Assembly (NCBI GenBank): GCA_024655945.1
Contig: JANLFK010000003.1
Coordinates: 186,001 to 250,000 of the forward strand
Length of the DNA: 64,000 nucleotides
Direction of reading: 5' to 3'
Source: a candidate division KSB1 bacterium
GTDB lineage: Bacteria > Zhuqueibacterota > Zhuqueibacteria > JANLFK01 > Oleimicrobiaceae
Shown: positions 50,216 to 64,000 of the stretch, one piece after another
How positions within the stretch are numbered: position 1 is the first letter of the stretch
Layout of the letters: each line of letters begins with the position of its first letter
Program-made: the position numbers and the translations under genes
The notes under the pieces: model-generated
What the model saw: the letters and a program-made list of their open reading frames with translations, nothing else
The model's database searches: none
Told to the model about the DNA's origin: nothing

Positions 50216-52888
50216 TCAGTGCAGGCGCACAAGCTTCGTGGTCGTCACCAGGTTCGGGAGTCTTGCCTGCACCAGATAGATGCCGGAAGGAACTGGCACG
50301 CCTGATGAGTCTCTTCCGTCCCACGGCAGACGGTGCCGACCCGCCTCCAGTGGGCCTCGGGCCAGCAGGCGCACCCTGCGCCCGAGCAGGTCGTACACTG
50401 CCACCTCCACGGCGGCACATCCCTTCTCGAGCTGCAGGAGGACCGTCGCACTGGCCTTGAAAGGATTTGGGTAGACAGCGAGCGGCCCCTGTTCACCAAC
50501 CGCCGTGCGAACCCGGATGGGCAAGGAGAAGTTTTGCTGGCGCGGCGCATTGGTCATCACCAGCAGGCGCGCCCGGGCATCCTGCTGCGCACAGCAGCGG
50601 ACCGAAAGCGAAACGGTCCCACCTGGTGGCACGGCACCCTCTGTGGGCTCGACTTCCACCCAGGGCGCGAGTACGTGGGTGCGGAGCAGAGCAAGGTCGC
50701 CGCCGCTGTAGCCTTGTCCGAGAGGCGGCCATGCCACTGCCTGGCTCTCCAGGGGGCGATCTCCCAGCCGCTGCGCAAAAAACGAAAGGCGAGGCCAGGT
50801 CTGGTCCGGGCCAGCGACTGCCTGCAAGGCGATGCGCGCCTCCATCACCGCGCACGGCAGGCCATGTTCATCGACGCCCTGCCCATGCTCTACCGTGAAG
50901 GCCGGCTCTGCGTACCAGCGCTGCTCCCGGGCAGCGGCCTGCGACGACGAGCTGGCGATGAGGCTCATGCGCGGTCCGTCCGGCGCCGACTTTAATTGGA
51001 CGCCGATCACATAGCGATCGGCATCCCGCAAGAAGTACCATTGCTGCCGCACGAAGAGCCAGTCTGCGTTGTTCTTCAGCTTGATGGTGCCGAGCACCTC
51101 GCCGTCACTGGCCACGGGCACTTCTGCTGCGTCCCACCAGCGCGCGGCGTCTAAGGCGTGCGGCACAACCTCAGCTGGCGGCGACAGAGCCTCGGTTGTC
51201 TCCTTTCCTTCTGGGAGCACCCGCGTCCGAAAGAGCATCAGGCCGTCACCCCGATTGGTCAGGCGGACAGCCTGCTCGCCACAATGCCCCGGGCGCACGA
51301 AGAGGCTAATCTCCTCAGGATGCACAGCTGCCAGCACCTGGCCCTGCACTGACGAGGCAAGAAATCCGGCAGATGGGAACCTGGCCTGGCAGCCCGAAGC
51401 GTCGCGAGCCACCAAGAAGTAGCGCACCGAGGTACCGCCCTCCTGAGGCGGGACGAGCCCTTGCCACCAACGGTGGCCGAGGGAGGCCAACGGCAGGCAG
51501 TGGAACTGCGCAAGGCTGTCCTGGGCATAGCAGAGCGTCACCTCCTCCGCGCGGTGGTCATCGAAGACCTCGCACTCGACCACATGGGGCTCACGCGTGG
51601 CAACTGCCGCCGGCAGGGGGCGTACCTGGCCAAACCGTGGCGGCTGATTCGGAACCAAGACGTCCACAAAAATGGTGTCGGCCCTTTGCCCGCGAATCCG
51701 GATGGCCACCCCCGTGTCGACGTCCTGCACAAGGCTGTCCGTCGAGCCTTCCACCAGGCGATAGCCCTGCGAACTGGGGTTGGTGAGCGGCCCGAAGTGG
51801 TGGCCGCCTGCCGTGGGCGAGCCGCTGCGGAAGAAGTCGGCCGCCGAGCCAGTATAGTCCGGCGAAAGATCCAGCGAGTCCAAACCGGCGATGCGGTCGG
51901 GAAGACCGGCCGTGTACAAGCCGGCGGCGCTCTCCACGTCCCACACCTCCGGCCCACTCCTGGGCAAGCCATCGTCCACCTTGATGTGCCAGATGAGCAA
52001 TCCCCTCCCCGCGTATGCCGCGTCGTAGTCAGTCCCCTGATGGTTGCACACCCAGAAGTACTGGTTTGGCGTGGCGAAGATGCGCAGCACCGTGCCGCCC
52101 CGCCGCATGTCCGCCAGCGCAACGTTGCACAGCGTGTCCGTCACTTCCACCACCTGTGCAGCGTCGAGCCACCCCACGCGGTAGAGGTTCTCCACACATA
52201 AAGGCACCAGGCGATGGACCTTGGCGTCCATCAGGCAGTAGTCCGCGAAGTATTTTCGCTCATACCCCGGTGGGTGGACAAATCCGAGCAGATGGGCGTA
52301 CTCGTGGGCGACAAGGCCGAAGAACATCTCCTTCGGCTGCACGTCCACCAGAATGCCCGGGCCGCGGTAGGCCGCGACCGCCGCACAGGGGAGATAGGCC
52401 ACGCCGGAAACGCCCGGCAGGCAGTCTTGGAGAAAGGCTAACACCAAGACGTCCGTAGCCGCCAGGCCCTCGGGGTGGTCCCTCGCTAATGCGTTAACCA
52501 CCTCTGTGCACAATCGGGGCAGGTCTGTAGTGGGGTTGAATTCTGCGTAGCTGGAGCTGGCGAGGTAACATCCAGTTCCCGACGCCCGACGCAGGAGGGT
52601 GTGCATCCTGGCGTGCTGCCGCCCACGTGACATTTTGAGAAAGTAGTCTGAGAAGAGAGTTTCCAGTTCCTGCCAAAATGGCGGCACCAGCGTGTCCGCC
52701 TGGTCGGGGAAGGCAACGTAGGCGATGCTGACCAGGACGCTGTCCCCGCCGGCCTGGGCGGTCACGGAAGCCACGCTCGGCGGCGTCCCGCAAATTCCCA
52801 ACGCGGGCGCGCGAACGCCGCCGTGCGCCAGGGTTGTGCCCGCCAGCACCACGGCAACTGTCATCCCAACGGCTATTCGGGACTTCAT
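50216..52888 (-). CDS. Secreted M6-like metalloprotease with C-terminal FlgD-Ig/sorting module
   Basis: An 890-residue exported protein with a signal peptide (MKSRIAVGMTVAVVLAGTTLAHG). The catalytic site is LVAHEYAHLLGFVH, HExxHxxGxxH at residues 195-205, in the setting of the M6/immune-inhibitor-A-like secreted proteases (early VLVSIAYVAFPDQADT, later YCLMDA, FWVCNHQGTDYDAAYAGRGLLIWHI). Beta-rich regions (about 400-800) follow, and the end is an FlgD-Ig module: AVYPNPFKASATVLLQLEKG, VAVYDLLGRRVRLL, LPWDGRDSSG. M6 enzymes are usually processed outside the cell. No ribosome site is clear. It lies after the FHA-TonB-like gene by 172 bases, and may or may not belong to that operon. Confidence 0.8.
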   Translation of the reverse strand: MKSRIAVGMTVAVVLAGTTLAHGGVRAPALGICGTPPSVASVTAQAGGDSVLVSIAYVAFPDQADTLVPPFWQELETLFSDYFLKMSRGRQHARMHTLLRRASGTGCYLASSSYAEFNPTTDLPRLCTEVVNALARDHPEGLAATDVLVLAFLQDCLPGVSGVAYLPCAAVAAYRGPGILVDVQPKEMFFGLVAHEYAHLLGFVHPPGYERKYFADYCLMDAKVHRLVPLCVENLYRVGWLDAAQVVEVTDTLCNVALADMRRGGTVLRIFATPNQYFWVCNHQGTDYDAAYAGRGLLIWHIKVDDGLPRSGPEVWDVESAAGLYTAGLPDRIAGLDSLDLSPDYTGSAADFFRSGSPTAGGHHFGPLTNPSSQGYRLVEGSTDSLVQDVDTGVAIRIRGQRADTIFVDVLVPNQPPRFGQVRPLPAAVATREPHVVECEVFDDHRAEEVTLCYAQDSLAQFHCLPLASLGHRWWQGLVPPQEGGTSVRYFLVARDASGCQARFPSAGFLASSVQGQVLAAVHPEEISLFVRPGHCGEQAVRLTNRGDGLMLFRTRVLPEGKETTEALSPPAEVVPHALDAARWWDAAEVPVASDGEVLGTIKLKNNADWLFVRQQWYFLRDADRYVIGVQLKSAPDGPRMSLIASSSSQAAAREQRWYAEPAFTVEHGQGVDEHGLPCAVMEARIALQAVAGPDQTWPRLSFFAQRLGDRPLESQAVAWPPLGQGYSGGDLALLRTHVLAPWVEVEPTEGAVPPGGTVSLSVRCCAQQDARARLLVMTNAPRQQNFSLPIRVRTAVGEQGPLAVYPNPFKASATVLLQLEKGCAAVEVAVYDLLGRRVRLLARGPLEAGRHRLPWDGRDSSGVPVPSGIYLVQARLPNLVTTTKLVRLH

Positions 52889-53060: not shown

Positions 53061-54410
53061 TCAGCTCTCGCGGTAGAAGACGAAGGGGTAATTCACCACC
53101 ACGGTGCCACTTTCTATGGGCTCAAAGCGCCAGCGGCGCACCGCATTTACCAGTTCGTTGAGGAACTCGCGATCGGAGATGGTGCTCTCCACCACCTCCA
53201 CCTTGCTTACCAGCCCACTGGCGGTAATGGTGATGTCCAGGCTGACTTTGCCTTGCAGATTCGGGTTTCGCTTCAGGTACTTGTTGTAGATATAGGTGAT
53301 GCGCCCCATGTTGGCGCTGACCACCGCGCGCAGAGTTTCTGGGTCGCGACGGCCACGCGCCTCCTCGCTCCCGGTCACTGTGGCGGTGCGCTCAACAGAG
53401 ACAGTCCCCTCCTTCTTCAACTCCACGCTTGGCACGGATGAGTCCAGGTCGCCGAGCAGGTCGTCGATGCCGCCGCGTTTTGTGGCGTCAAACAGTTCCT
53501 CCAGGCCGGAGCCTTTGCTACTGCCGCCTCCGTTGCGCCGCCCCACGCGCAGGTCGGTTTCGCCCGCCACCGCCGCCAACTCATGCACCAGCCCTTTGTC
53601 CATCAGGATATCCACCAAACTGCCGGAGCGCCCCCCTTGGCCCGTGCCGGAGATGAGGCCCAGCAACCCCTTGCTGGTGACGGTCCTGCCCTCGCCCCCA
53701 CTTCGCTCGCCGCCACCGCGTTGTCCTTCCGAGGAACGCTCCGCCCCCTCTGTTTTCGGCTTTTCTGCCGTGGCGGGCGCCACCCCGCCGCGCCCTGTAT
53801 CCGCGACCGGCGTCAGCTGCGAGCGCACCACAAAGCGTGCAAAGCGCTGCGGCACCTTCTCTAAGTCAACCGGCTTGCGCTCGGTAATGGTCATGCCGCT
53901 CAGTTGCCACACGGTCAAACCCACGACCAGAAGCAAGCTCGCCAGCACCAACTTGAAGAGCGGCTCGTCAGTGAACCTCTTGAGCAGGTTGTGGCCAAGT
54001 GAAAACTCCGTCGCCTGCGGAAGTACCGCCACTTTGGCCTTTTCGCAGGCAAAATCGACGCGCACCGGCCCGACGGTCAGAGAGCCCTGTTTGCCAGGCA
54101 GCAAAGGCAGAAGGTAGGAATTGGCCCGCCTGGGCAGCAAGCCGTGCTTCACCAGGTCGCGCACGTTGAGGCGAGAATCATCAACCCACACTTCACCGTG
54201 AACAAAACCCTGGATCTGGGCAACAAACCTCCCATTCAGCCAGCCAATCAGGACGTGGCGCTCCGGAAAGTCCTCTCCATAGACGACCACATCGTTGCCT
54301 GGCGACCGCCCCACGGTGAGCCGCTCCCCCTCGCCCAGCACACGCTGGCTCACGCCATCGCCCTGGCTCACCCTGACCCGCAACTGTTGGACTATGCGCT
54401 CTTTTGCCAT
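53061..54410 (-). CDS. FHA-domain inner-membrane protein with AgmX/TonB-like C-terminus
   Basis: A 449-residue bitopic protein. ATG 54410 was chosen so that it opens with an FHA-like fold: LTVGRSPGNDVVVYGEDFPERHVLI (about 31-55). A single membrane span, LFKLVLASLLLVVGLTVWQL (about 150-170), is followed by a long Gly/Ser/Glu-rich low-complexity linker (about 205-290), then a C-terminal domain: DPETLRAVVSANMGRITYIYNKYLKRNPNLQGKVSLDITITASGLV...FLNELVNAVRRWRFEPI, the AgmX/PglI/TonB-like pattern. In Myxococcus proteins of this architecture (GltG, GltJ) link the cytoplasm to the periplasm in the Agl-Glt complex. It directly follows two ExbD genes and ExbB, so it is likely the transducer moved by that motor. 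Confidence 0.85.
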   Translation of the reverse strand: MAKERIVQQLRVRVSQGDGVSQRVLGEGERLTVGRSPGNDVVVYGEDFPERHVLIGWLNGRFVAQIQGFVHGEVWVDDSRLNVRDLVKHGLLPRRANSYLLPLLPGKQGSLTVGPVRVDFACEKAKVAVLPQATEFSLGHNLLKRFTDEPLFKLVLASLLLVVGLTVWQLSGMTITERKPVDLEKVPQRFARFVVRSQLTPVADTGRGGVAPATAEKPKTEGAERSSEGQRGGGERSGGEGRTVTSKGLLGLISGTGQGGRSGSLVDILMDKGLVHELAAVAGETDLRVGRRNGGGSSKGSGLEELFDATKRGGIDDLLGDLDSSVPSVELKKEGTVSVERTATVTGSEEARGRRDPETLRAVVSANMGRITYIYNKYLKRNPNLQGKVSLDITITASGLVSKVEVVESTISDREFLNELVNAVRRWRFEPIESGTVVVNYPFVFYRES

Positions 54411-54475
54411 CTGTTCCGCGTCACCCTCACCAACCCTGACCACCCGCGTGCATCGCTCTCGAAACTCATGCCCGT

Positions 54476-54988
54476 CTACTCGGTGCGCAGCACTGCGAGG
54501 TTCATATCGTTGTACCCCATGCGGCCGCACGTGACCATGACCCGCTTAAGCAGCTCAAACGGGGTGCTCTTGTCCCCCTGGATGGTGATGTTGCCGGCAA
54601 ATGAGCTCACCGCGCCCAGTTGGCCGATCCCTTCGGTCAATGCCCGCAAGTCCTGAAGTTCTTTGAGCAGAGCAGCGATCACCAGGTCGCTGCGCGCCAA
54701 AACGTCGGCGTTGCGCACGATGGGCCGCCCGTCCAGCAGAATCCATTCGCGCGTGAGGGCCACGATTGAGGTCGTCTTCGGCGGCAAGGTGGCAGTGGAC
54801 TGCGGCAGGCGCAAGTCGCGCGCAATAGTCATGATCTGCCCCTCGGCCGAGTAGCTCTTCAGCAGGAACACCAGCAAGATGGTGAACATGTCGATCATCG
54901 ACGTCAGCCGCAAGGTAAAGCTGCCGGTGCGGCTCCGTCGCCGGGTTGGAAACAGCTGCCACCCTGTGCTCTCTGTGGAAAGGTTCAT
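54476..54988 (-). CDS. ExbD/TolR-family protein with intact proton-channel Asp
   Basis: A 170-residue protein with one N-terminal membrane span. FTLRLTSMIDMFTILLVFLLKSYSAEG contains Asp33, the position that corresponds to the essential membrane Asp (D25 in E. coli ExbD). The periplasmic part has DLRLPQSTATLPPKTTSIVALTREWILLDGRPI and ends in the ExbD fold with '.I.GDKSTPFELLKRVM.TC...GY...N.AVL'. In the Exb/Tol/Mot motors, five ExbB chains surround a dimer of this subunit, and proton flow through the Asp drives motion. It lies 65 bases upstream of the FHA gene and 21 bases after the first ExbD. Confidence 0.9.
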   Translation of the reverse strand: MNLSTESTGWQLFPTRRRSRTGSFTLRLTSMIDMFTILLVFLLKSYSAEGQIMTIARDLRLPQSTATLPPKTTSIVALTREWILLDGRPIVRNADVLARSDLVIAALLKELQDLRALTEGIGQLGAVSSFAGNITIQGDKSTPFELLKRVMVTCGRMGYNDMNLAVLRTE

Positions 54989-55009
54989 GGTCGCGATTGC
55001 ATTCGCCTT

Positions 55010-55468
55010 TCAACCAGCCAACGAAATGTTAGGAAAACCCGCCTCTCGGCAGGTGTCCATCACCTTGACGATGACTTCGTAGAGAATTGTGGAGGCTGGG
55101 GAGATGACGATGTCCTCGCTCTCCGGGTACTTGGCCTTCACCGCCTTCAGCTGCGCGGTCAGGCCCTTGTAGTCAAAGGCGCCACCCACCTTAGGAAGCT
55201 TCGGGTGGTTCATGTAGGGGCTGTTCAGCTGAAAGCCATCCTCCTCCACCGCCAGAATGTTGAGGATCGCCGGTTTGTCTTGGGCAGCGACGGCGCTCTT
55301 GCGCCCTGCAGCCGGCAGGGAGAGCTCCAACACGGCGATCTTCACGAAAACCGCGGTCAACAGCAAGAAAGGGACGAGGATGAGGAAGAGATTCATGACG
55401 CCGATGATATTGACGTCGGCCTCGCCGCGAACCGTGCCCCTGCCGATTGCCGCCTTCAAGTTCATCAC
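55010..55468 (-). CDS. Second ExbD-like protein, channel Asp replaced by Asn
   Basis: A 152-residue ExbD family protein. ATG 55468 overlaps the ExbB stop (ATGA). The single membrane span reads VNIIGVMNLFLILVPFLLLTAVF; where the usual motif has Asp (as IDMF in its neighbour), it carries Asn26. The periplasmic domain is well kept: '.I..DGF.L', DYKGLTAQLKAVKAKYPESEDIVISPASTILYEVIVKVMDTCREAGFPNISL. A subunit pair with one active and one neutral chain is plausible (ExbD works as a dimer), so this is probably not a decayed gene. Assignment firm, channel role inferred. Confidence 0.86.
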   Translation of the reverse strand: MMNLKAAIGRGTVRGEADVNIIGVMNLFLILVPFLLLTAVFVKIAVLELSLPAAGRKSAVAAQDKPAILNILAVEEDGFQLNSPYMNHPKLPKVGGAFDYKGLTAQLKAVKAKYPESEDIVISPASTILYEVIVKVMDTCREAGFPNISLAG

Positions 55469-56103
55469 TTGCCTCCGCGCACCGTCAACCCTTGAAAGAT
55501 GCGCGCCACGCTCTCATTGATCTCGTCGACGATGCCGTTGGTCTTCTCCTGCAGGTAGCCGTAGGCCAACAGGCAGGGGATGGCCACAATTAGGCCAAAG
55601 GCCGTGGTGTTCATGGCCTGCGAGATGCCCACCGACAATAGCTCCGCTTTCTGCGCTGCTTCTGCTTGCGCCACCGCCTGGAAAGAGACAATGAGACCGA
55701 AGATGGTTCCCAAGAGCCCGAGCAGCGTCGCCACATTGGCGATGGTAGAGAGGTAGTGGGTACGTTTCTCCAGCTTGGGCACTTCCACCAAGGCGGCCAG
55801 CTCGAAGGCACGCTGCACGTCCTTCTCACCTCCGCCGTTCTGGAACTGTTCCAGGCCAGCCCGCACGATGCGCGGCAGGGGCGCCTCCGAACGCCGCGCG
55901 TACTCGATAGCCCTCGCCACGTTGCCGGAATGCACTAACTCCTGAATGCGGTTCACAAATGCAGGGGTATCGATGCGCGTCCTAAACGCTAACACGATGA
56001 TACGCTCGATGGCTATCGCATAGCCGAATACCATCGCTAAGGCGATGACATACATGAACGGCCCACCGTGCTTGAAAAACGCCGCAATGGTCTCCAAACT
56101 CAC
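55465..56103 (-). CDS. ExbB/TolQ/MotA-family motor stator protein
   Basis: A 212-residue inner-membrane protein of the MotA/TolQ/ExbB family. The GTG at 56103 follows GAAGGAGGGC. Three membrane helices: FMYVIALAMVFGYAIAIERII (about 16-36), then after a long cytoplasmic stretch LSTIANVATLLGLLGTIFGLIVSFQAV (about 118-144) and SQAMNTTAFGLIVAIPCLLAYGYL (about 160-183). The 'A..ATLLGLLGTI.G.I' and 'AL.TTA.GL.VAIP' family motifs are both present. It forms the pentameric proton-driven stator with the two ExbD proteins, with which it overlaps or nearly touches. Confidence 0.93.
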   Translation of the reverse strand: MSLETIAAFFKHGGPFMYVIALAMVFGYAIAIERIIVLAFRTRIDTPAFVNRIQELVHSGNVARAIEYARRSEAPLPRIVRAGLEQFQNGGGEKDVQRAFELAALVEVPKLEKRTHYLSTIANVATLLGLLGTIFGLIVSFQAVAQAEAAQKAELLSVGISQAMNTTAFGLIVAIPCLLAYGYLQEKTNGIVDEINESVARIFQGLTVRGGK

Positions 56104-56169
56104 GCCCTCCTTCTTCTTCCCAAAGCGACTCGACCTTTCTTGTAAAGCTCAGCACCTGCTCACGCTCTC

Positions 56170-56544
56170 TCACCAGGGGATGTAGTCCCGGGCGTGGCGG
56201 TTGAGCGTCTTGCGCACCACGTCGCGTTCCACCGGCCGAAAGATTTCCTGGAAAAAAGACCGGTCGATGCCGATGTCATCCACGCGTGGATCGGTCCCGG
56301 GCACGATGAACACCGCCTGCGGCTTCTCAATGCGCCCGAGCACTTCGATCTTGTTCAAGATGATCTTGACCGCATCCTCGCCCACCGACGGGTCACGGCT
56401 GCTGACCTTTTGCTCCACGTCGGAGACGATCTTGTTGAGTTTCTCCTCCACAGGCTTCTGCGGCGCTCCTGCCACGCTCACCATCCCGCTGAGCATGGCC
56501 AGGCAAATGGCCGCCAGCCAGCGGAGGTTACTACATCCACGCAT
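56170..56544 (-). CDS. Small secreted protein of unknown function in the Exb operon
   Basis: A 124-residue exported protein that I do not recognise. ATG 56544 lies seven bases after AGGGG and three bases after the TPR gene stop. The signal peptide (RWLAAICLAMLSGMVSVAGA) is followed by a charged helical stretch, EEKLNKIVSDVEQKVSSRDPS, then AVKIILNKIEVLGRIEKPQAVFIVPGTDPRVDDIGIDRSFFQEIFRP. Its position between the large TPR protein and ExbB with almost no gaps indicates that it is part of the same envelope complex; a periplasmic adaptor is a guess. Confidence 0.7.
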   Translation of the reverse strand: MRGCSNLRWLAAICLAMLSGMVSVAGAPQKPVEEKLNKIVSDVEQKVSSRDPSVGEDAVKIILNKIEVLGRIEKPQAVFIVPGTDPRVDDIGIDRSFFQEIFRPVERDVVRKTLNRHARDYIPW

Positions 56545-56547
56545 CGC

Positions 56548-59460
56548 TTACCCCTTGTTCGTCCCAGGCCTCTGGGCCGGGCCCAGGCCGCCTTCCGTAC
56601 CGAGTTCGATGAGCAGCGCCTGCATGCGCTTGCGGCTTTCGGCAACCCACTCGTTCTCGATATTGCTCTCCTCAGCCCGCCTGACATTGGCCCGGTAGGT
56701 CTCCAGCGCCTGCACCTTGAATGGCTGGGCGGTCTCTGCCAGTTTCTCGTCATAGGTGAGGCGCTCATCAGGCGTCAGGTTGTCAGGCCGGGGCGACTCG
56801 AGGAACGCTCGCACAAACTCTTCAAAGGCAAGGCCAATCCGGTAGGACGCGGCCGTAGCCCATTCGGCGACCTTGTACTTGGCCGCTTCCTTGTACGCTT
56901 CAAGGACCAGCCTCAGCTCGTCGCGCTTGCGAGCGAGATTCTTGTCCAGCGGTGGCACCAATTGGATGCGACAATATTCATCGAAATGGATTTCGCCGAG
57001 CATGAACTGGGCATGGGCGGCCACGTAGTCATCAACCACCACGCCGCGCAGGATGTAGGTGTTGTACTGGCTGATGGTCTTGGCGAATGCATCCTGCGCC
57101 GCCCTGAAGTCTCGCTGGCGGAAGGCCATGTCGCCCACCTTGAACATCACCTCCAGGTATTCATCTGGCTCGGCCCCACCAAGAGCAACGTAACGTTCGT
57201 AAGCGCGGCGCGCTCCTTGCCAGTCCTGCAGATTTTCGCAGCAGGAGCCGGCGTGGAACAGCGCGCGCTGGGCGTACTTGGAGTTAGGCACCAGCTCCAC
57301 CAGCCGCCCAAAGTCCTCGGCGGCCTCGCGCCATTGGCCGAGCCCTTGCCGCAGAACGCCGGCGCGGTACAGGGCCTCGTCGACCAGGGCGCTGCGCGGA
57401 TGTCGGCGCGGTAACTGTTCGAAGAGCGCAACCGCCTTTTCGCTCTCCCCCTCTTTCTCCCGCAGGAGTGCCGCCTCGTACAGGGCCCGCTCTGCTACCT
57501 CCGGATCGCTGGCCGAAGCAGCGAGCTGCTCAAAGCCGGCGGCCGCCTCTGGCAATCGCCCTACATCCCGCAAGCTCTCGGCCGCCTTGAAGCGTGAGGA
57601 AGCGATCATGCGGTTTGCCCGCTCGGCAAACTCGGCCGAATCCGCGTAGGTAGTTGCCAGTCGCTGGTACCACTCCTCCGCCTTCTGGTAGTCTGCATTC
57701 TTGAAGTACGACTGGGCGATCATGTTCATGGCCTGGGCGGTGTAGGGACCGCGTTCCGCCATCTCTGCCACCTTGCGGTACGCCTGCACCGCCAGGTCGA
57801 AATTACCCAGCCCGTAGAGTGTCTCGCCCAACTTCATGAGCACCTCGGTGCGCTTGGGACTCTGCGACAGGAAGCGTTCAAAGTCGTTGCAGGCCTCCAC
57901 CAACCGCGCCTGATTAGGATGCGCCACCACCACAGCCTGCATGATGCCCGAGGCCAAGAAGTCGTCAATGTACGCCGTGACAGTATCGGCCATGGCGCCC
58001 TTTTGGCAGAGGTTGTAGTAGCAGAGGATACGGTTGTAAGCTGCCTGCTCCTTGAACGTTGTCTCCTCGTACTGCGTCATGCACTGGTAGTACGCCTCGG
58101 CAGCCCCTTCGAAATCTCCCACCTCGTAGAGGCATTCGGCAAAGTAGTAGTTCACCCGATAGGCTTTCTCACCGCGGGGGAACTTGCTCAGGTATTGCGA
58201 GAACCTATCGATGGCCAGCCGGTAGTCGCGCACGCTGTTTCCCTCGTGCGCCTTTCGCTGGTAGTAGATGCCCAACTCGTAAAGCGCCTCTTGCGCCAAA
58301 TGCAGGGCGTCGCTACGGATTTCCCCCTCAGGATACTGGGCAAGCCATGCGCTGCCCGGGCCGAAGTTCGTGGCGAGCACTTCGCGGGCCTCGTTCGCCT
58401 TCTCCTCATCGCCGGCGCGCTCATAGGTCTCGACGATCCGCTTGTAGAGCAGCGGCGCATCGTGGTAGAAGGGAAACACCTCCAGCATCGTCTTGTAAGT
58501 CTCGATGGCTTCGTCGTAGCCGTTGCGCGCGTTGTAGGTGTCTGCCATCTTCAGGAACACCTGAATGGGGTAGTCTCGGCCTTGCTTCTTCTCGAAAAAG
58601 GCGCGCGCCTTGGAAGGCCCGCCGAATTCGGTGAACGAGGCGGCTACGTACTCGATGGCCTCGCGCCGCAAGTCGGCTTTACTCTTGTTCCCTCCTCCGG
58701 CAACTCGCTTGCCCGCCGTCAGGGCGGTGGTCTCCTCGATGAGGTAGACAAAACTGCTAATTGCATTGGCAAAGTCGTTGCTGTTGTAATATGACCAACC
58801 CAGCTTGTATAGCCCCATCTCAAAGTAAGGGCTATCCCACTTGTCGAGCAGCCGTCGGTAATGGTTGATGGCCTCCTGAAACTCGCGCCGCTCAAAGTAG
58901 TACTCGCCCAAGCGAAAGTTCACCTCCGGCGCCAGCGGGCTGGAGGGCACCTCAGCAAGAAGGCGGACAAAGTACTCCTTGGCCTTCTCGCGATTCCCCT
59001 CGTCGAGGTAGCTCATGCCCAGCCGGTAGAGGACCCGGTCCTTGAAGTCGACATTGGGGAACTTTTCCAGAAGCTTGCTTGCCGTAGCAATAGTCTTTTG
59101 CAGGTTGATACGCGGCATGACCGGCTGGATCGCGAGGAGGCCTTGGTCGTACTTGGCCATCTCTGCCTCGTAGAGCGTCATCTGCCGCTGGAATTCCAAG
59201 TCGGCTTTGCGCGCATACAGCTCTGCCAACTGGAACATGACGGTGGGGGCAAACTCGGAGGCCGGGTACTTGCTCAGCAACATCTCGTTTTCCTTGATGG
59301 CCTCATCGAGTCGCGCCTCTTCTAAGGGCGAGATCCGGCCCTCCTGGACCGATTGCGCCAGGGGAGCATGCACCGGCATGCCCACAAGAAGACAGACCAC
59401 ACCCAAGATGAGGAAGGCCCTCATGTGCTTGTTGCCAGAGTCATTCCACCTCTGCCGCAT
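56548..59460 (-). CDS. Large periplasmic TPR-repeat protein
   Basis: A 970-residue exported protein. ATG 59460 begins one base after the stop of the preceding TPR gene, with GGAG nine bases ahead. After a signal segment (MRAFLILGVVCLLVGMPVHAPLAQS), nearly the whole length consists of tetratricopeptide-type helical repeats: EKAKEYFVRLLAEVPSSPLAPEVNFRLGEYYF, EAIETYKTMLEVFPFYHDAPLLYKRIVE, AVQAYRKVAEMAERGPYTAQAMNMIAQSYF, and so on to about residue 900. It is a protein-interaction scaffold without a catalytic motif. Long periplasmic TPR proteins accompany ExbB/ExbD and AgmX-type proteins in the Myxococcus gliding cluster and related loci; the link here rests on context. Confidence 0.85.
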   Translation of the reverse strand: MRQRWNDSGNKHMRAFLILGVVCLLVGMPVHAPLAQSVQEGRISPLEEARLDEAIKENEMLLSKYPASEFAPTVMFQLAELYARKADLEFQRQMTLYEAEMAKYDQGLLAIQPVMPRINLQKTIATASKLLEKFPNVDFKDRVLYRLGMSYLDEGNREKAKEYFVRLLAEVPSSPLAPEVNFRLGEYYFERREFQEAINHYRRLLDKWDSPYFEMGLYKLGWSYYNSNDFANAISSFVYLIEETTALTAGKRVAGGGNKSKADLRREAIEYVAASFTEFGGPSKARAFFEKKQGRDYPIQVFLKMADTYNARNGYDEAIETYKTMLEVFPFYHDAPLLYKRIVETYERAGDEEKANEAREVLATNFGPGSAWLAQYPEGEIRSDALHLAQEALYELGIYYQRKAHEGNSVRDYRLAIDRFSQYLSKFPRGEKAYRVNYYFAECLYEVGDFEGAAEAYYQCMTQYEETTFKEQAAYNRILCYYNLCQKGAMADTVTAYIDDFLASGIMQAVVVAHPNQARLVEACNDFERFLSQSPKRTEVLMKLGETLYGLGNFDLAVQAYRKVAEMAERGPYTAQAMNMIAQSYFKNADYQKAEEWYQRLATTYADSAEFAERANRMIASSRFKAAESLRDVGRLPEAAAGFEQLAASASDPEVAERALYEAALLREKEGESEKAVALFEQLPRRHPRSALVDEALYRAGVLRQGLGQWREAAEDFGRLVELVPNSKYAQRALFHAGSCCENLQDWQGARRAYERYVALGGAEPDEYLEVMFKVGDMAFRQRDFRAAQDAFAKTISQYNTYILRGVVVDDYVAAHAQFMLGEIHFDEYCRIQLVPPLDKNLARKRDELRLVLEAYKEAAKYKVAEWATAASYRIGLAFEEFVRAFLESPRPDNLTPDERLTYDEKLAETAQPFKVQALETYRANVRRAEESNIENEWVAESRKRMQALLIELGTEGGLGPAQRPGTNKG

Positions 59461-59461
59461 G

Positions 59462-60847
59462 CTACCGCTCCTGTAGCCCTTCCTTCGTTGGCGTTCCACC
59501 CGTACCCCTGAGGAACAGGGCCCGCGACTTGCCATATTCCGCGTAGGCACGCCAGGTCTTGCGCTCCAGCTTCAAGTTCAGGTTCTCCCGCAGCGCCGAA
59601 ATGGTGCTATGCATCTCCAGGAAGCGTTGCTGCTCCTGGACAATGTTCTCCAGGAGGGCGCGCCGTGTCTCGTCGAGCCGCGCCTTTTCCTCCTTGAGAT
59701 GAGCGGGCACGCGCGATTGCCCACCTACCTGCAGCGCGTCCAGCAGGTTCGCCTCCAGCAGAAGCAAGTCCTCGCGTAAGCGCTCTATCTCTTGCTCCTG
59801 CGCACTCAGGAGACGGCTGAGCTGTTGCACCATTGCGGACAGATTGTCCTCTTCGGGAAACAGCTCGATGAGCTTATCGTACACCTTTACCGCATCGTCA
59901 TAGACACCAAGCTGCACATAACAACGACCCAGCAAAAACAGTGCCTCTTCACTCTTTGGGTCTTGGGGGAAGCGCGACACGAGAGTCATTAGCGGCGCTA
60001 CGGCCCCTGCATAGTCGGCCATCTTCACCGAGGCCCAGCCACAACCCAAGAGGGCCTCAGGGTAGCGGCGATGCTCGGCTGAAACGTCGGCAAAGTAGCC
60101 GCGCGCCTCTTTAAAGTAGCCTAGCTCATAGTAGAGATATCCCAGGGTGAGCCGACCCTCATCGACTACCGCACGACGCTCCTCTGATATTATCGGCAAA
60201 GAGACCAACTTGCGAAACACCGCTACCGACTTGGTCACCCGCTTCATCTTGAGTAGGGACAGGCCCACGGTATATAGGCCGTAGCCGTAGTAGTCGCTGC
60301 GCGGGTCCAGGTTGAGCAAGGCCTCCAGCGCGCTGGGATAGTCTTTGATGTTGTAGTAGCTCTGCCCCGCATAGTAACGGGCCTCGTCGTCGACGTCCAC
60401 TGGGCGGGGCGCCTGCAGCAAGGCCTCGTACAGGTTGAGGCTCTCCTGGTACCTGCCCTGCTTGTACCGCGTCTTTTGTAGGCCGAGCAGCCCCTTGGCT
60501 AACAAAGGGCTCCCGAAGTGGTTCTTCACCAGGTAGGTGTAGGTGGAACTGGCGGCATTGTAGAGTTCCATCTCATACAGGCAGCCCCCCAGCAGGAGGA
60601 GCACCTCGTCGGTTCTCTTGAATTCCGGATAGTAGTCCAACAGGAGCGCGAGGTCGCGTGCCGCTTGCCAATAGGAGCCTGACTTGATGTAAGATTTGGC
60701 TTCGCTCAGCAGCCGGTCGGCCACCCGCTCAAGATCGCGGTCGGCAGCGCGCCCCACTGCCTGCGGATAGGCCGAGACGCAACACGCCAGCCAGACGCAC
60801 GCCGCCAGGGCTATGTATCGCCATCCTGAAGACACCAGCACTCCCAT
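59462..60847 (-). CDS. Exported TPR protein with C-terminal coiled coil
   Basis: A 461-residue exported protein. The start is uncertain (ATG 60847 or GTG two codons later); the signal peptide is SSGWRYIALAACVWLACCVSA. Residues 40-320 are TPR-like: YWQAARDLALLLDYYPEFKRTDEVLLLLGGCLYE, NAASSTYTYLVKNHFGSPLLAKGLLGLQKT, SEEALFLLGRCYVQLGVYDDAVKVYDKLIELFP. The rest (about 330-440) is rich in heptads, SRLLSAQEQEIERLREDLLLLEANL and ETRRALLENIVQEQQRFLEMHSTI, a predicted coiled coil. It is followed with a one-base gap by the larger TPR gene, so the two are a matched pair. Confidence 0.82.
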   Translation of the reverse strand: MGVLVSSGWRYIALAACVWLACCVSAYPQAVGRAADRDLERVADRLLSEAKSYIKSGSYWQAARDLALLLDYYPEFKRTDEVLLLLGGCLYEMELYNAASSTYTYLVKNHFGSPLLAKGLLGLQKTRYKQGRYQESLNLYEALLQAPRPVDVDDEARYYAGQSYYNIKDYPSALEALLNLDPRSDYYGYGLYTVGLSLLKMKRVTKSVAVFRKLVSLPIISEERRAVVDEGRLTLGYLYYELGYFKEARGYFADVSAEHRRYPEALLGCGWASVKMADYAGAVAPLMTLVSRFPQDPKSEEALFLLGRCYVQLGVYDDAVKVYDKLIELFPEEDNLSAMVQQLSRLLSAQEQEIERLREDLLLLEANLLDALQVGGQSRVPAHLKEEKARLDETRRALLENIVQEQQRFLEMHSTISALRENLNLKLERKTWRAYAEYGKSRALFLRGTGGTPTKEGLQER

Positions 60848-60882
60848 CAGCCCCAAATCGGCCTGGGCAGCGTCGGCTACAG

Positions 60883-61893
60883 CTACCTTGGCTTCTCCGG
60901 CTTTTCCAGTTCCTTCTTCATGTTCTCCAGCTCGCGGGCGGCTTGCTCCCGGCGTTGCCGGAGGCGTTCGGCCTCCCGCTGGGCTTCCAATTGCCTGAGC
61001 CTTGCCTCGCGCGCCTTCTTGTCCAGCGTCCTGAACACCGTAAGCCGCCGCGACACGCCGAGAACAACCTTCCAGTCGGCATATCGCTTGTGAAACTCGT
61101 CGGTCACCTCCGGCCTGCGCGCCAGACTCACGTCCACCGCCAGGTCGGCCAGCAGTCCAAAGGGCGCAAGGAAGCGTATGCCCTGCGTCAGTCTCTGCGA
61201 ATTATGATACCAGCGCACTGAGGTGTTGTTCAAGAACAGCTCGCCTGTGTACTCGGTGAAGAGGTAGGAAGAGCGCACAGGGATTTTGATCCCTACACCA
61301 AGCAAGACCTGATCGACGCGCGCGGTAAAGAACCGATCGTTGAGGTCGTGGTCGATATACCCCAAGTTGAAATGCGCCTTGAGCGGGGTCAGCGGAAAGG
61401 AGCGCCTCAGATCCCACGTGGCCACGCCGAGCAGCGCCACAGCGGTCTTTCCAGAAGAGTACGGCTCGAACGGCACGTTGTGGTACTCTGCCGTGGGCAA
61501 TACCACCATCGGATAAAAGCCGAGGCGGAAGCTGCTCCATCTGAACGGCACCACTTTCAGGCCAAGCCGCGTGTCTCCGGGCATCGGCGTGAGCTGCTGA
61601 CCGTCGTCCTGGTACAAAGCCATACCGGCGGTCAACTCAAATGTCTCCGAGAGGGCGAACGTCAGGCTGCTATTGATGGTAAAGTCTTTGACCATCACCG
61701 AGGCATTGCCCCGGGCCTCCACGAAACTCAGGCCGTGGAGGGTCATATTCATTTGCCCAGGAATCAAGGCCTCGGCCGACTGCACGCGCAACAAGCCTCT
61801 GCCTCCCAACATCGTAGATTGCGCTGGGACCGCCACGGGCAGCAAAAGCACGGTGAGCGCCAGAAATGCCTTGACAGAGGAGTGCTTTGTCAC
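60883..61893 (-). CDS. Exported, probably outer-membrane barrel protein with charged C-terminal helix
   Basis: A 336-residue exported protein. The GTG at 61893 (GAGAGGG ahead) begins a signal peptide, TKHSSVKAFLALTVLLLPVAVPAQS. Strands alternate through the middle (MNMTLHGLSFVEA, RLGLKVVPFRWSSFRLGFYPMVVL, KTAVALLGVATWDLRR, VLLGVGIKIPVRSSYLFTEYTGELFL, LADLAVDVSLARR), as in an outer-membrane barrel. The last 60 residues are a long charged helix (REARLRQLEAQREAERLRQRREQAARELENM), unusual for a barrel and possibly contacting the periplasmic TPR proteins. First gene of the Exb/TPR operon, 35 bases ahead of the first TPR gene. Function unknown. Confidence 0.7.
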   Translation of the reverse strand: MTKHSSVKAFLALTVLLLPVAVPAQSTMLGGRGLLRVQSAEALIPGQMNMTLHGLSFVEARGNASVMVKDFTINSSLTFALSETFELTAGMALYQDDGQQLTPMPGDTRLGLKVVPFRWSSFRLGFYPMVVLPTAEYHNVPFEPYSSGKTAVALLGVATWDLRRSFPLTPLKAHFNLGYIDHDLNDRFFTARVDQVLLGVGIKIPVRSSYLFTEYTGELFLNNTSVRWYHNSQRLTQGIRFLAPFGLLADLAVDVSLARRPEVTDEFHKRYADWKVVLGVSRRLTVFRTLDKKAREARLRQLEAQREAERLRQRREQAARELENMKKELEKPEKPR

Positions 61894-62135: not shown

Positions 62136-64000
62136 TCACACCATGCCTCTGCGCCGCCGCAGAAACCATTCGCTGGCCAGGAGGGCCACCAGCACCGCCA
62201 GCACTGCCTCACAGCGCGCATAACGAAACTGCACCTGCGACTTCTTGCTCACCACGCGCAGGGGGAGCCCCTGGGCAAGAGGTTCTAGGTCGTTCCAAAC
62301 TACCATGAATCCGCCGGAACGGCTAGCCATCTGCTTCAGCTCTTCCACCCGGCTGGTGGTCGACAGATACTCCACGCTCCAGCGTGTGACCGTGAAGCGC
62401 CCGGTGTCGGTAGACGCGACTCCCCTGCGCGGCATGGCCTCCGCAACGAATTCGTAGTCGCCTTCCACATCAGCAGTGGTCTTGGCCTCGTATCGCCCAG
62501 CGCCTGCCTCCTCCAACACCAGCTCTTTGCTTCCCGCCGGGCCGCTCACCTTAGCACGCACCTGCGCTCCTTCTAAGGGATTGAGGTCGGGGCCAAAAAG
62601 CTGTCCGACAAAGGTGACTGTCTCGCCGCTGCGATAGAACTCGCGGTCAGTTCGCACGTGGAAGAGCTTCTGCTCCTCCCGCAAGGAGAGCCAGCGCACA
62701 CTGTTTTTTACAAAGGTGAGAAAGAGCGAATTGTCTTTGCCTATCCCCCACATCATCAGGTCCCAGCGCCAGAACCCGGAGGCGAGCAGCGCGACAGACC
62801 TGCTCTCTGGCGTCTGGCGGGCGACAATCAGCGGCGCACCCTTCGTTGCCCTTGCCGACGGCTCCGCACCAAAGGCGAGCACTTCGGCGTCGGGCCAGAG
62901 AGGGACGTCGGAAAACGACAAAATGACCGGGGGAAGTTCTTCCCAAGCTGCGGCGTTGGCAGGCCCACTCTCGGCGATTGCAGTAAGCGGGTGGAATGGC
63001 GCATCCTGCATGCGGACCGTGCGCAACTCAGGGCCGCGCAGGCGGGGCGTCCCGTTGAGGGGAAGGCTATCCCACAGCGTTGCCAGCCGCTCAAAGTCGA
63101 TGCCCTCCCCTCCGGCCCAAAAGAGGGGCAGGTGGCGCGCGCGGATGGCACCTGCGACCTGGGCAACCAAGGCGGCGTCGCTTTCTGTTGCCGGAAAGTC
63201 CACCAGCAGCGCGCAGTCCGCTTCCCTGAGCGCTTGCACAAGGCTCTGCGCCGAGGCCCTGTAAAAGCCGCCCCCCTTGCGGCAGACGTAGATGTGCGCC
63301 GCCACATTGGCATCTGCTTCCAGTGCCTTGCCGAGGAAGACCACATCGTGGCTGGGGCGCCCTGCCAAGAGCACCACCTTTATCTTGCTGGCAAGGGCCT
63401 TGACGACGAACTCGGCGCGGTTGTTCTCGTAGGTCTGCTCGCCAGGCAGATGCGACACGGTGACCACGTAGCGCCGCGCTCCTGGGGCATCAGGCCGGAA
63501 ACGGAGCGTCACTTGCGTCTCGGGCTGGCTTGCGGCGAGCGGCACGATGCGCCTGTCGAGCACCCGGCCGGCCGTCTGCAGTTCCACAACGAGGTTCGCC
63601 TGGTCAAAACCTCGGTTGAGAAGTCGCACTTCCACAGGCACTTCTGATCCCACGTAGGTGACCTCGTTGGCCAGCGCCGAGTGCACGATCAGATCGCGCG
63701 GCGGATTACTGCTGCCCACCGCCACCGGAAAGAGCGGCCATGCACTCTTTTCCCCGAGGCGCACGAGTCGCTCCCCCACATTCGCCGCTCCGTCGGTGGC
63801 AATGACCACCCCGGCCACGGGCTGGCCGCGCAGTTGCTCCGCCAAGTCCCTCAGCGCCGCCTCCAGGTTGGTTGCCAGTCCGTCGAAGCGGAGGGTGTCC
63901 TGCCCCGGCTGGAACTCCCCATCAAGGCCCGAGGAGAACAGGTAGAACGGCATGTGCGCGCGCGCGGCAAGGGAATGGAGCTGGCTGCTGCCCAGGACGG
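62136..64000 (-). CDS. BatA/vWA-type large membrane protein, 5' part outside the window
   Basis: At least 621 residues; the frame stays open to the right edge, so the N-terminus is missing. The visible start region reads as the second half of a von Willebrand A-like domain: DTLRFDGLATNLEAALRDLAEQLRGQPVAGVVIATDGAANVG, with the TD(G) metal-site motif. Beta-sandwich segments follow (EVPVEVRLLNRGFDQANLVVELQ, TFVGQLFGPDLNPLEGAQVRAKV), a Rossmann/GATase-like middle (KIKVVLLAGRPSHDVVFLGKALEADANVAAHIYV) and a C-terminal membrane span near the end (AVLAVLVALLASEWFLRRRR). The plan fits uncharacterised vWA membrane proteins related to BatA and aerotolerance operons in FCB bacteria. Neighbours upstream are unseen. 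Confidence 0.72.
   Translation of the reverse strand, partial: VLGSSQLHSLAARAHMPFYLFSSGLDGEFQPGQDTLRFDGLATNLEAALRDLAEQLRGQPVAGVVIATDGAANVGERLVRLGEKSAWPLFPVAVGSSNPPRDLIVHSALANEVTYVGSEVPVEVRLLNRGFDQANLVVELQTAGRVLDRRIVPLAASQPETQVTLRFRPDAPGARRYVVTVSHLPGEQTYENNRAEFVVKALASKIKVVLLAGRPSHDVVFLGKALEADANVAAHIYVCRKGGGFYRASAQSLVQALREADCALLVDFPATESDAALVAQVAGAIRARHLPLFWAGGEGIDFERLATLWDSLPLNGTPRLRGPELRTVRMQDAPFHPLTAIAESGPANAAAWEELPPVILSFSDVPLWPDAEVLAFGAEPSARATKGAPLIVARQTPESRSVALLASGFWRWDLMMWGIGKDNSLFLTFVKNSVRWLSLREEQKLFHVRTDREFYRSGETVTFVGQLFGPDLNPLEGAQVRAKVSGPAGSKELVLEEAGAGRYEAKTTADVEGDYEFVAEAMPRRGVASTDTGRFTVTRWSVEYLSTTSRVEELKQMASRSGGFMVVWNDLEPLAQGLPLRVVSKKSQVQFRYARCEAVLAVLVALLASEWFLRRRRGMV

Follow-up and report, generated by a model that had tools for sequence, protein, structure and literature searches.

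What kind of machine is encoded by eight closely spaced genes of a candidate division KSB1 bacterium that combine an ExbB/ExbD-type motor with TPR proteins and a transducer carrying FHA- and TonB-like domains? The genes lie in a 64,000-nucleotide stretch of DNA, here called the window, and were compared with related loci from other genomes.

Layout and conservation of the operon

The eight open reading frames (53061-61893, all on the minus strand) are separated by intergenic gaps of -4 to 66 bases and encode, in order, a barrel, a TPR protein ending in a coiled coil (TPRcc), a long TPR scaffold (TPR970), a small secreted protein (SSP), ExbB, ExbD1, ExbD2 and the FHA/TonB transducer (Table 1). 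All eight had been proposed as a single-strand operon in an initial sequence-only reading, which also correctly recognized the long TPR protein but gave it 970 residues; counted from the ATG that precedes the signal peptide, its length is 958. Conservation of the neighboring genes in relatives had been set beforehand as a test of that reading. Forty loci of the phylum were fetched, and nearly all of those not truncated at the end of a contig retain the order of the eight genes, which is thus not a chance arrangement: the operon is real and conserved as a unit.

The genomes compared are mostly metagenome assemblies. The AgmX/PglI tail of the transducer was found in 82 of 82 genomes of the phylum (KSB1/Calditrichota records), and type-A ExbD2, tallied by hand at a threshold above 200 bits, in 59 of 82, including 54 of the 63 genomes of the window's class, with several of the absences falling in incomplete or motor-swapped genomes. 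A second, paralogous operon (operon B) is located about 90 kb away in the same genome; its TPR proteins are longer, and its transducer lacks the FHA domain. Upstream of the operon lies a gene for a VWA/BatA-like protein, found in the same place in nine fetched loci, while the downstream gene, which adjoins the operon only within the genus, encodes an M6-type protease-like protein that ends in a T9SS sorting tail. The KSB1 flanks contained no pointer to a cargo, and the flanking genes that recur there (PAP2-like, VWA-like and TsaD-like) offered no clue to function.

When 84,980 species were scanned once, the module also turned up in records of Fermentibacterota, Fibrobacterota, Deferrisomatales and 'Deltaproteobacteria'. 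It is further present, with a partly different gene order, in the phylum of genome G082, where a search for GltG returned nothing above the cut-off. Neighbors in the cluster of genome G124 (L187) match GltG (122.8 bits), GltC (85.9) and the myxobacterial outer-membrane protein family OMP_myx_plus (109.2), and the ExbD pair of this cluster falls into the same ExbD1 and ExbD2 clades as described below. Two Fibrobacterota carry genes for Wza/Wzc and glycosyltransferases directly after the module and in the same orientation, a neighborhood that hints at polysaccharide handling.

Table 1 Features of the operon, its flanks and related loci. Positions in the window unless a locus is named.
Feature	Position	Strand	Details
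Outer-membrane beta-barrel	60883-61893	minus	336 aa, GTG start, signal peptide
TPRcc, TPR and C-terminal coiled coil	59462-60856	minus	464 aa, signal peptide; Pfam TPR_6 1.9e-19
TPR970, long TPR scaffold	56548-59424	minus	about 958 aa, signal peptide; Pfam TPR_6 3.6e-45
SSP, small secreted protein	56170-56544	minus	124 aa; alignments
ExbB/TolQ/AglR-type motor ring subunit	55465-56103	minus	212 aa; PF01618 (MotA_ExbB) 7.9e-31
ExbD1, Asn26 in place of the proton-carrying Asp (codon 55391-55393)	55010-55468	minus	PF02472 2.5e-18
ExbD2, proton-carrying Asp33 (codon 54890-54892)	54476-54988	minus	PF02472 9.7e-13
FHA/TonB transducer	53061-54410	minus	449 aa, ATG start; profile and fold searches
VWA/BatA-like protein gene, upstream	62136-63998
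M6-type protease-like protein gene, downstream	50216-52888
Operon B	L160 (G000:C3, about 149-160 kb)		adjoins genes resembling M23 peptidase and ParB
Motor-less type-A operons, TonB-related transmembrane segment	L204-L207, L057; L210 4996-5748; L212 6157-6912
Fibrobacterota module with Wza/Wzc and glycosyltransferase genes	L130 11507-17685; L132 7475-14717

Transducer and envelope components

The transducer consists of a cytoplasmic FHA-like domain (residues 6-126), a transmembrane helix (residues 150-171), a disordered Gly/Ser linker and a C-terminal domain (residues 334-448); AlphaFold2 predicts these parts as a beta sandwich, a single transmembrane helix, a disordered linker and a TonB-like fold. 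Its last 90 residues match the AgmX/PglI tail (NF033768) with 93.4 bits (6.7e-27) compared with about 30 bits (6.1e-7) for the Pfam model TonB_C, which confirms the AgmX/PglI-type C-terminus first read from the sequence, as opposed to only an ordinary TonB end. The C-terminal part also matches GltG (NF033760) with an E-value of 7.9e-23, although its score is far below the equivalog cut-off of 650. The same reading had joined this end, via a linker and one membrane span, to a cytoplasmic FHA domain. This architecture is supported by the predicted fold, for which a fold search matched FHA domains, with an E-value of 1.9e-4 at best, as well as TonB C-terminal domains, FusB among them; however, the Pfam FHA model stays below its cut-off in the window's transducer (0.029). 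Phospho-control through the FHA domain, likewise proposed, was rejected as unsupported: at the phosphothreonine-contact positions, which were placed by visual comparison with the FHA consensus, the Arg of GR is found in 14/42 sequences, the Ser of SxxH in 0/42 (Pro in 41/42) and the Asn of NG in 3/42, and five genomes have lost the FHA domain from a transducer that is otherwise kept with barrel, TPR proteins and SSP. For the FHA-like domain, a docking or regulatory role with no need for phosphothreonine is probable.

As a sequence search of solved structures gave no credible match for the barrel, a fold search was used. The AlphaFold2 model (mean pLDDT 88) has 12 strands (residues 47-285) and a predicted C-terminal periplasmic helix of 42 residues (residues 289-330), and the closest solved fold identified by Foldseek is FapF (5o68, E 3e-7). 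The barrel is conserved in the phylum, and Fermentibacterota encode a counterpart with a helical tail whose similarity to the KSB1 barrel sequence is marginal. Both TPR proteins are matched by many TPR models in a Pfam scan and give weak or generic TPR matches to Glt profiles, among them a weak match of TPRcc to GltC (3.6e-6). TPR970 is present in all phyla examined.

No Pfam family matched SSP. Alignments revealed the motif G.(I/L)EKPQ.VFI.PG...(I)(D/E)RSFF.EIFR.VE, which is retained beyond KSB1 in Fermentibacterota, Fibrobacterota, Deferrisomatales/'Deltaproteobacteria' and the phylum of G082. Judged by these alignments, SSP is a conserved family of small, putatively periplasmic proteins at the GltF/NfsF position and is new here. 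A tally of C-termini found a terminal Trp in most SSPs; this conserved, YIPW-like end is perhaps a docking tail.

Unequal ExbD pair and motor loss in one family

Asn26 of ExbD1 aligns with Asp23 of Escherichia coli TolR. Among 137 ExbD1 copies, the proton-site residue is Asn in 126, Ser in 9, Cys in 2 and Asp in none, whereas Asp is found in 142 of 142 ExbD2 copies, some genomes entering these counts twice. In a tree of 71 sequences, which leaves out Myxococcus, ExbD1 and ExbD2 form reciprocal clades (support 99/97), each spanning all phyla, and the Asn/Asp asymmetry is therefore old. ExbDs elsewhere in the window's genome carry Asp, the operon B pair is again Asn/Asp, and both ExbDs of an ordinary ExbB-ExbD-ExbD-TonB locus in relatives carry this residue. 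As far as these alignments and the tree go, the ExbD pair is made up of two ancient clades, always one Asp and one non-Asp partner, an arrangement that is new here.

Since the aglQ D28N exchange abolishes motor function in Myxococcus (PMC3858216), an axle built from ExbD1 only should be dead, and both an ExbD2 homodimer and an ExbD1-ExbD2 heterodimer are possible axles. If the axle were an ExbD2 homodimer, ExbD1 would be an accessory subunit, acting in assembly or peptidoglycan anchoring outside the rotating axle. The missing acidic residue is in line with such a role, as is the fact that the stoichiometry of two-ExbD motors is unknown (PMC9389320). However, in all phyla examined ExbD1 retains the ExbD domain with its transmembrane and periplasmic parts, and its gene accompanies that of ExbD2; we regard the accessory role as rather unlikely. 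The conserved pair with one Asp-less member argues for a functional heterodimer. The division of labor between AglQ and AglS in the Agl motor is stated to be an open question (PMC9389320), and a single small operon now makes it accessible to tests.

Five genomes of family f7 (G048, G049, G051, G052 and G053) have kept the type-A barrel, TPR proteins, SSP and transducer while ExbB, ExbD1 and ExbD2 are gone from the operon; in G050, a member of the same family, the operon is intact. The motor-less transducers have lost the FHA domain and carry instead a coiled coil and a transmembrane segment of roughly 63 residues that is 44-59% identical (best E 6e-19) to TonB of the ordinary Ton locus (ExbB-ExbD-ExbD-TonB), which was found in G053 and G051. 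The simplest reading of these sequences is that the f7 transducer was re-plugged onto the ordinary Ton motor, the transmembrane segment presumably having been exchanged in this direction, which would represent a natural motor swap and is new here. A transmembrane swap that accompanies motor loss is as expected if the motor acts at this segment, and the five genomes with a motor-less, apparently re-plugged operon amount to an experiment of nature on the site at which the transducer is driven. We tentatively propose, with somewhat less than even confidence, an obligate ExbD heterodimer with a single Asp, stepping unlike the symmetric 5:2 Ton, Tol and Mot motors, in a widely conserved class of envelope motors, where exchange of the membrane segment would allow the transducer to be re-plugged onto an ordinary Ton motor, as in this one family.

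Proposed machine and comparison with known systems

It is likely, in our judgement, that the operon encodes a proton-motive-force-driven force transducer spanning the inner membrane, periplasm and outer membrane and representing a variant of the Agl-Glt/Nfs core complex. Starting from what can be read directly from the sequences (the parts, their order and conservation, the Asn/Asp asymmetry and, in one family, motor loss with a changed transducer) and from the predicted folds of barrel and transducer, we infer a heterodimer, a set of contacts, a force path and a cargo as follows. ExbB would form a ring around an axle of ExbD1 (Asn) and ExbD2 (Asp), most likely a heterodimer with one working proton site. 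This motor would act on the FHA/TonB-like transducer at its membrane helix. On a long flexible linker, the AgmX-type TonB-like domain of the transducer would cross the periplasm and reach the TPR proteins, SSP and the barrel. The outer-membrane side would then be pulled or moved so that a surface component, for example polysaccharide or adhesin, is transported or the envelope is remodelled. Nfs and Glt act on surface polysaccharides (PMC3858216), and these precedents together with the Fibrobacterota neighborhood suggest transport of a surface polysaccharide or adhesin.

The near-universal presence in the class, where several absences fall in incomplete or motor-swapped genomes, and the lack of a recognizable TolB in the window's genome suggest a second possibility, namely a housekeeping machine of the envelope that takes the place of Tol-Pal in outer-membrane constriction and stabilization and not one for surface transport or motility. 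The presence pattern fits housekeeping equally with motility or transport. A search for TolB_N gave no match in the window's genome, few and weak ones in the class and only weak ones in about 40% of the phylum. The best models are TolQ for ExbB, TolR for ExbD1 and YbgF/CpoB for the TPR proteins; TolQ/TolR-like motor scores and TPR proteins are features in common with Tol-Pal. However, the TolQ and TolR scores are far below the curated cut-offs, the operon contains no gene for TolB or a Pal-like protein, the AgmX/PglI tail of the transducer is not TolA-like, and the same genome holds a second, paralogous operon. We consider Tol-Pal-like housekeeping rather unlikely.

An energizer of the Ton type, serving uptake via TonB-dependent receptors with the TPR and barrel genes as accessories, would share the motor type and the TonB-like C-terminal fold, and the genome encodes 32 Plug domains. 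None of these is found in the operon, whose barrel is 12-stranded and without a plug. Moreover, the tail scores higher as AgmX than as TonB, conservation of partners extends to TPR proteins, SSP and the barrel but not to a receptor, and the two ExbDs are unequal where the ordinary Ton locus of relatives keeps Asp in both, making a Ton-type energizer very improbable. A dedicated gliding-motility machine like Agl-Glt of Myxococcus would share the motor type, GltG-like transducer, TPR and outer-membrane barrel parts and a gene order parallel to gltA-H/nfsA-H. Against this, no equivalents of GltI, GltJ, GltK or GltH were recognized within the operon, the Myxococcus core genes alone are not sufficient for motility, and most carriers are not known gliders (PMC3169522). 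We consider a dedicated gliding machine improbable.

Of the known systems, the Agl-Glt core complex (aglRQS and gltDEGC)(Luciano et al. 2011, PMC3169522) shares with the operon ExbB and two ExbDs in one cluster, an FHA-TM-TonB-like transducer with an AgmX/PglI tail, a likeness seen in family profiles and predicted folds, and TPR proteins, for which the likeness consists of the weak GltC match and otherwise generic TPR. It also occurs as a single gene cluster outside Myxococcales. In contrast, the operon described here resides in other phyla, adds the 12-stranded outer-membrane barrel with its C-terminal helix as well as SSP, and does not conserve the FHA phosphothreonine residues; both AglQ and AglS are reported in a review to carry a conserved Asp (PMC9389320), although this does not define the core complex, whereas ExbD1 has Asn, Ser or Cys in every copy. 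Core clusters are reported to carry one extra, non-myxobacterial gene (PMC3169522), which could be the barrel or SSP. The Nfs sporulation complex of Myxococcus xanthus (nfsA-H; PMC2875238, PMC3858216) shows a parallel order of barrel, TPR protein, long TPR protein, small secreted protein and FHA/TonB protein (NfsG), with barrel and SSP (124 aa; NfsF, 94 aa) likened to NfsA/B/F by gene position. Here, the motor is inserted between the F and G positions, whereas Nfs relies on AglRQS in place of a dedicated motor and comprises further outer-membrane proteins and one more TPR protein. With the AgmX/PglI C-terminus, the order conserved within and beyond the phylum, the predicted outer-membrane barrel and the parallel with nfsA-H/gltA-H, the compact, Agl-Glt-like envelope-spanning machine originally envisaged has held up. 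The operon extends the Agl-Glt class to KSB1 and Fermentibacterota, which suggests that the outer-membrane barrel and the small GltF-like protein may be old Agl-Glt parts and not myxobacterial additions. Judged by its sequence, it best fits a variant of the core complex of Luciano et al. and not a Myxococcus-type gliding machine proper.
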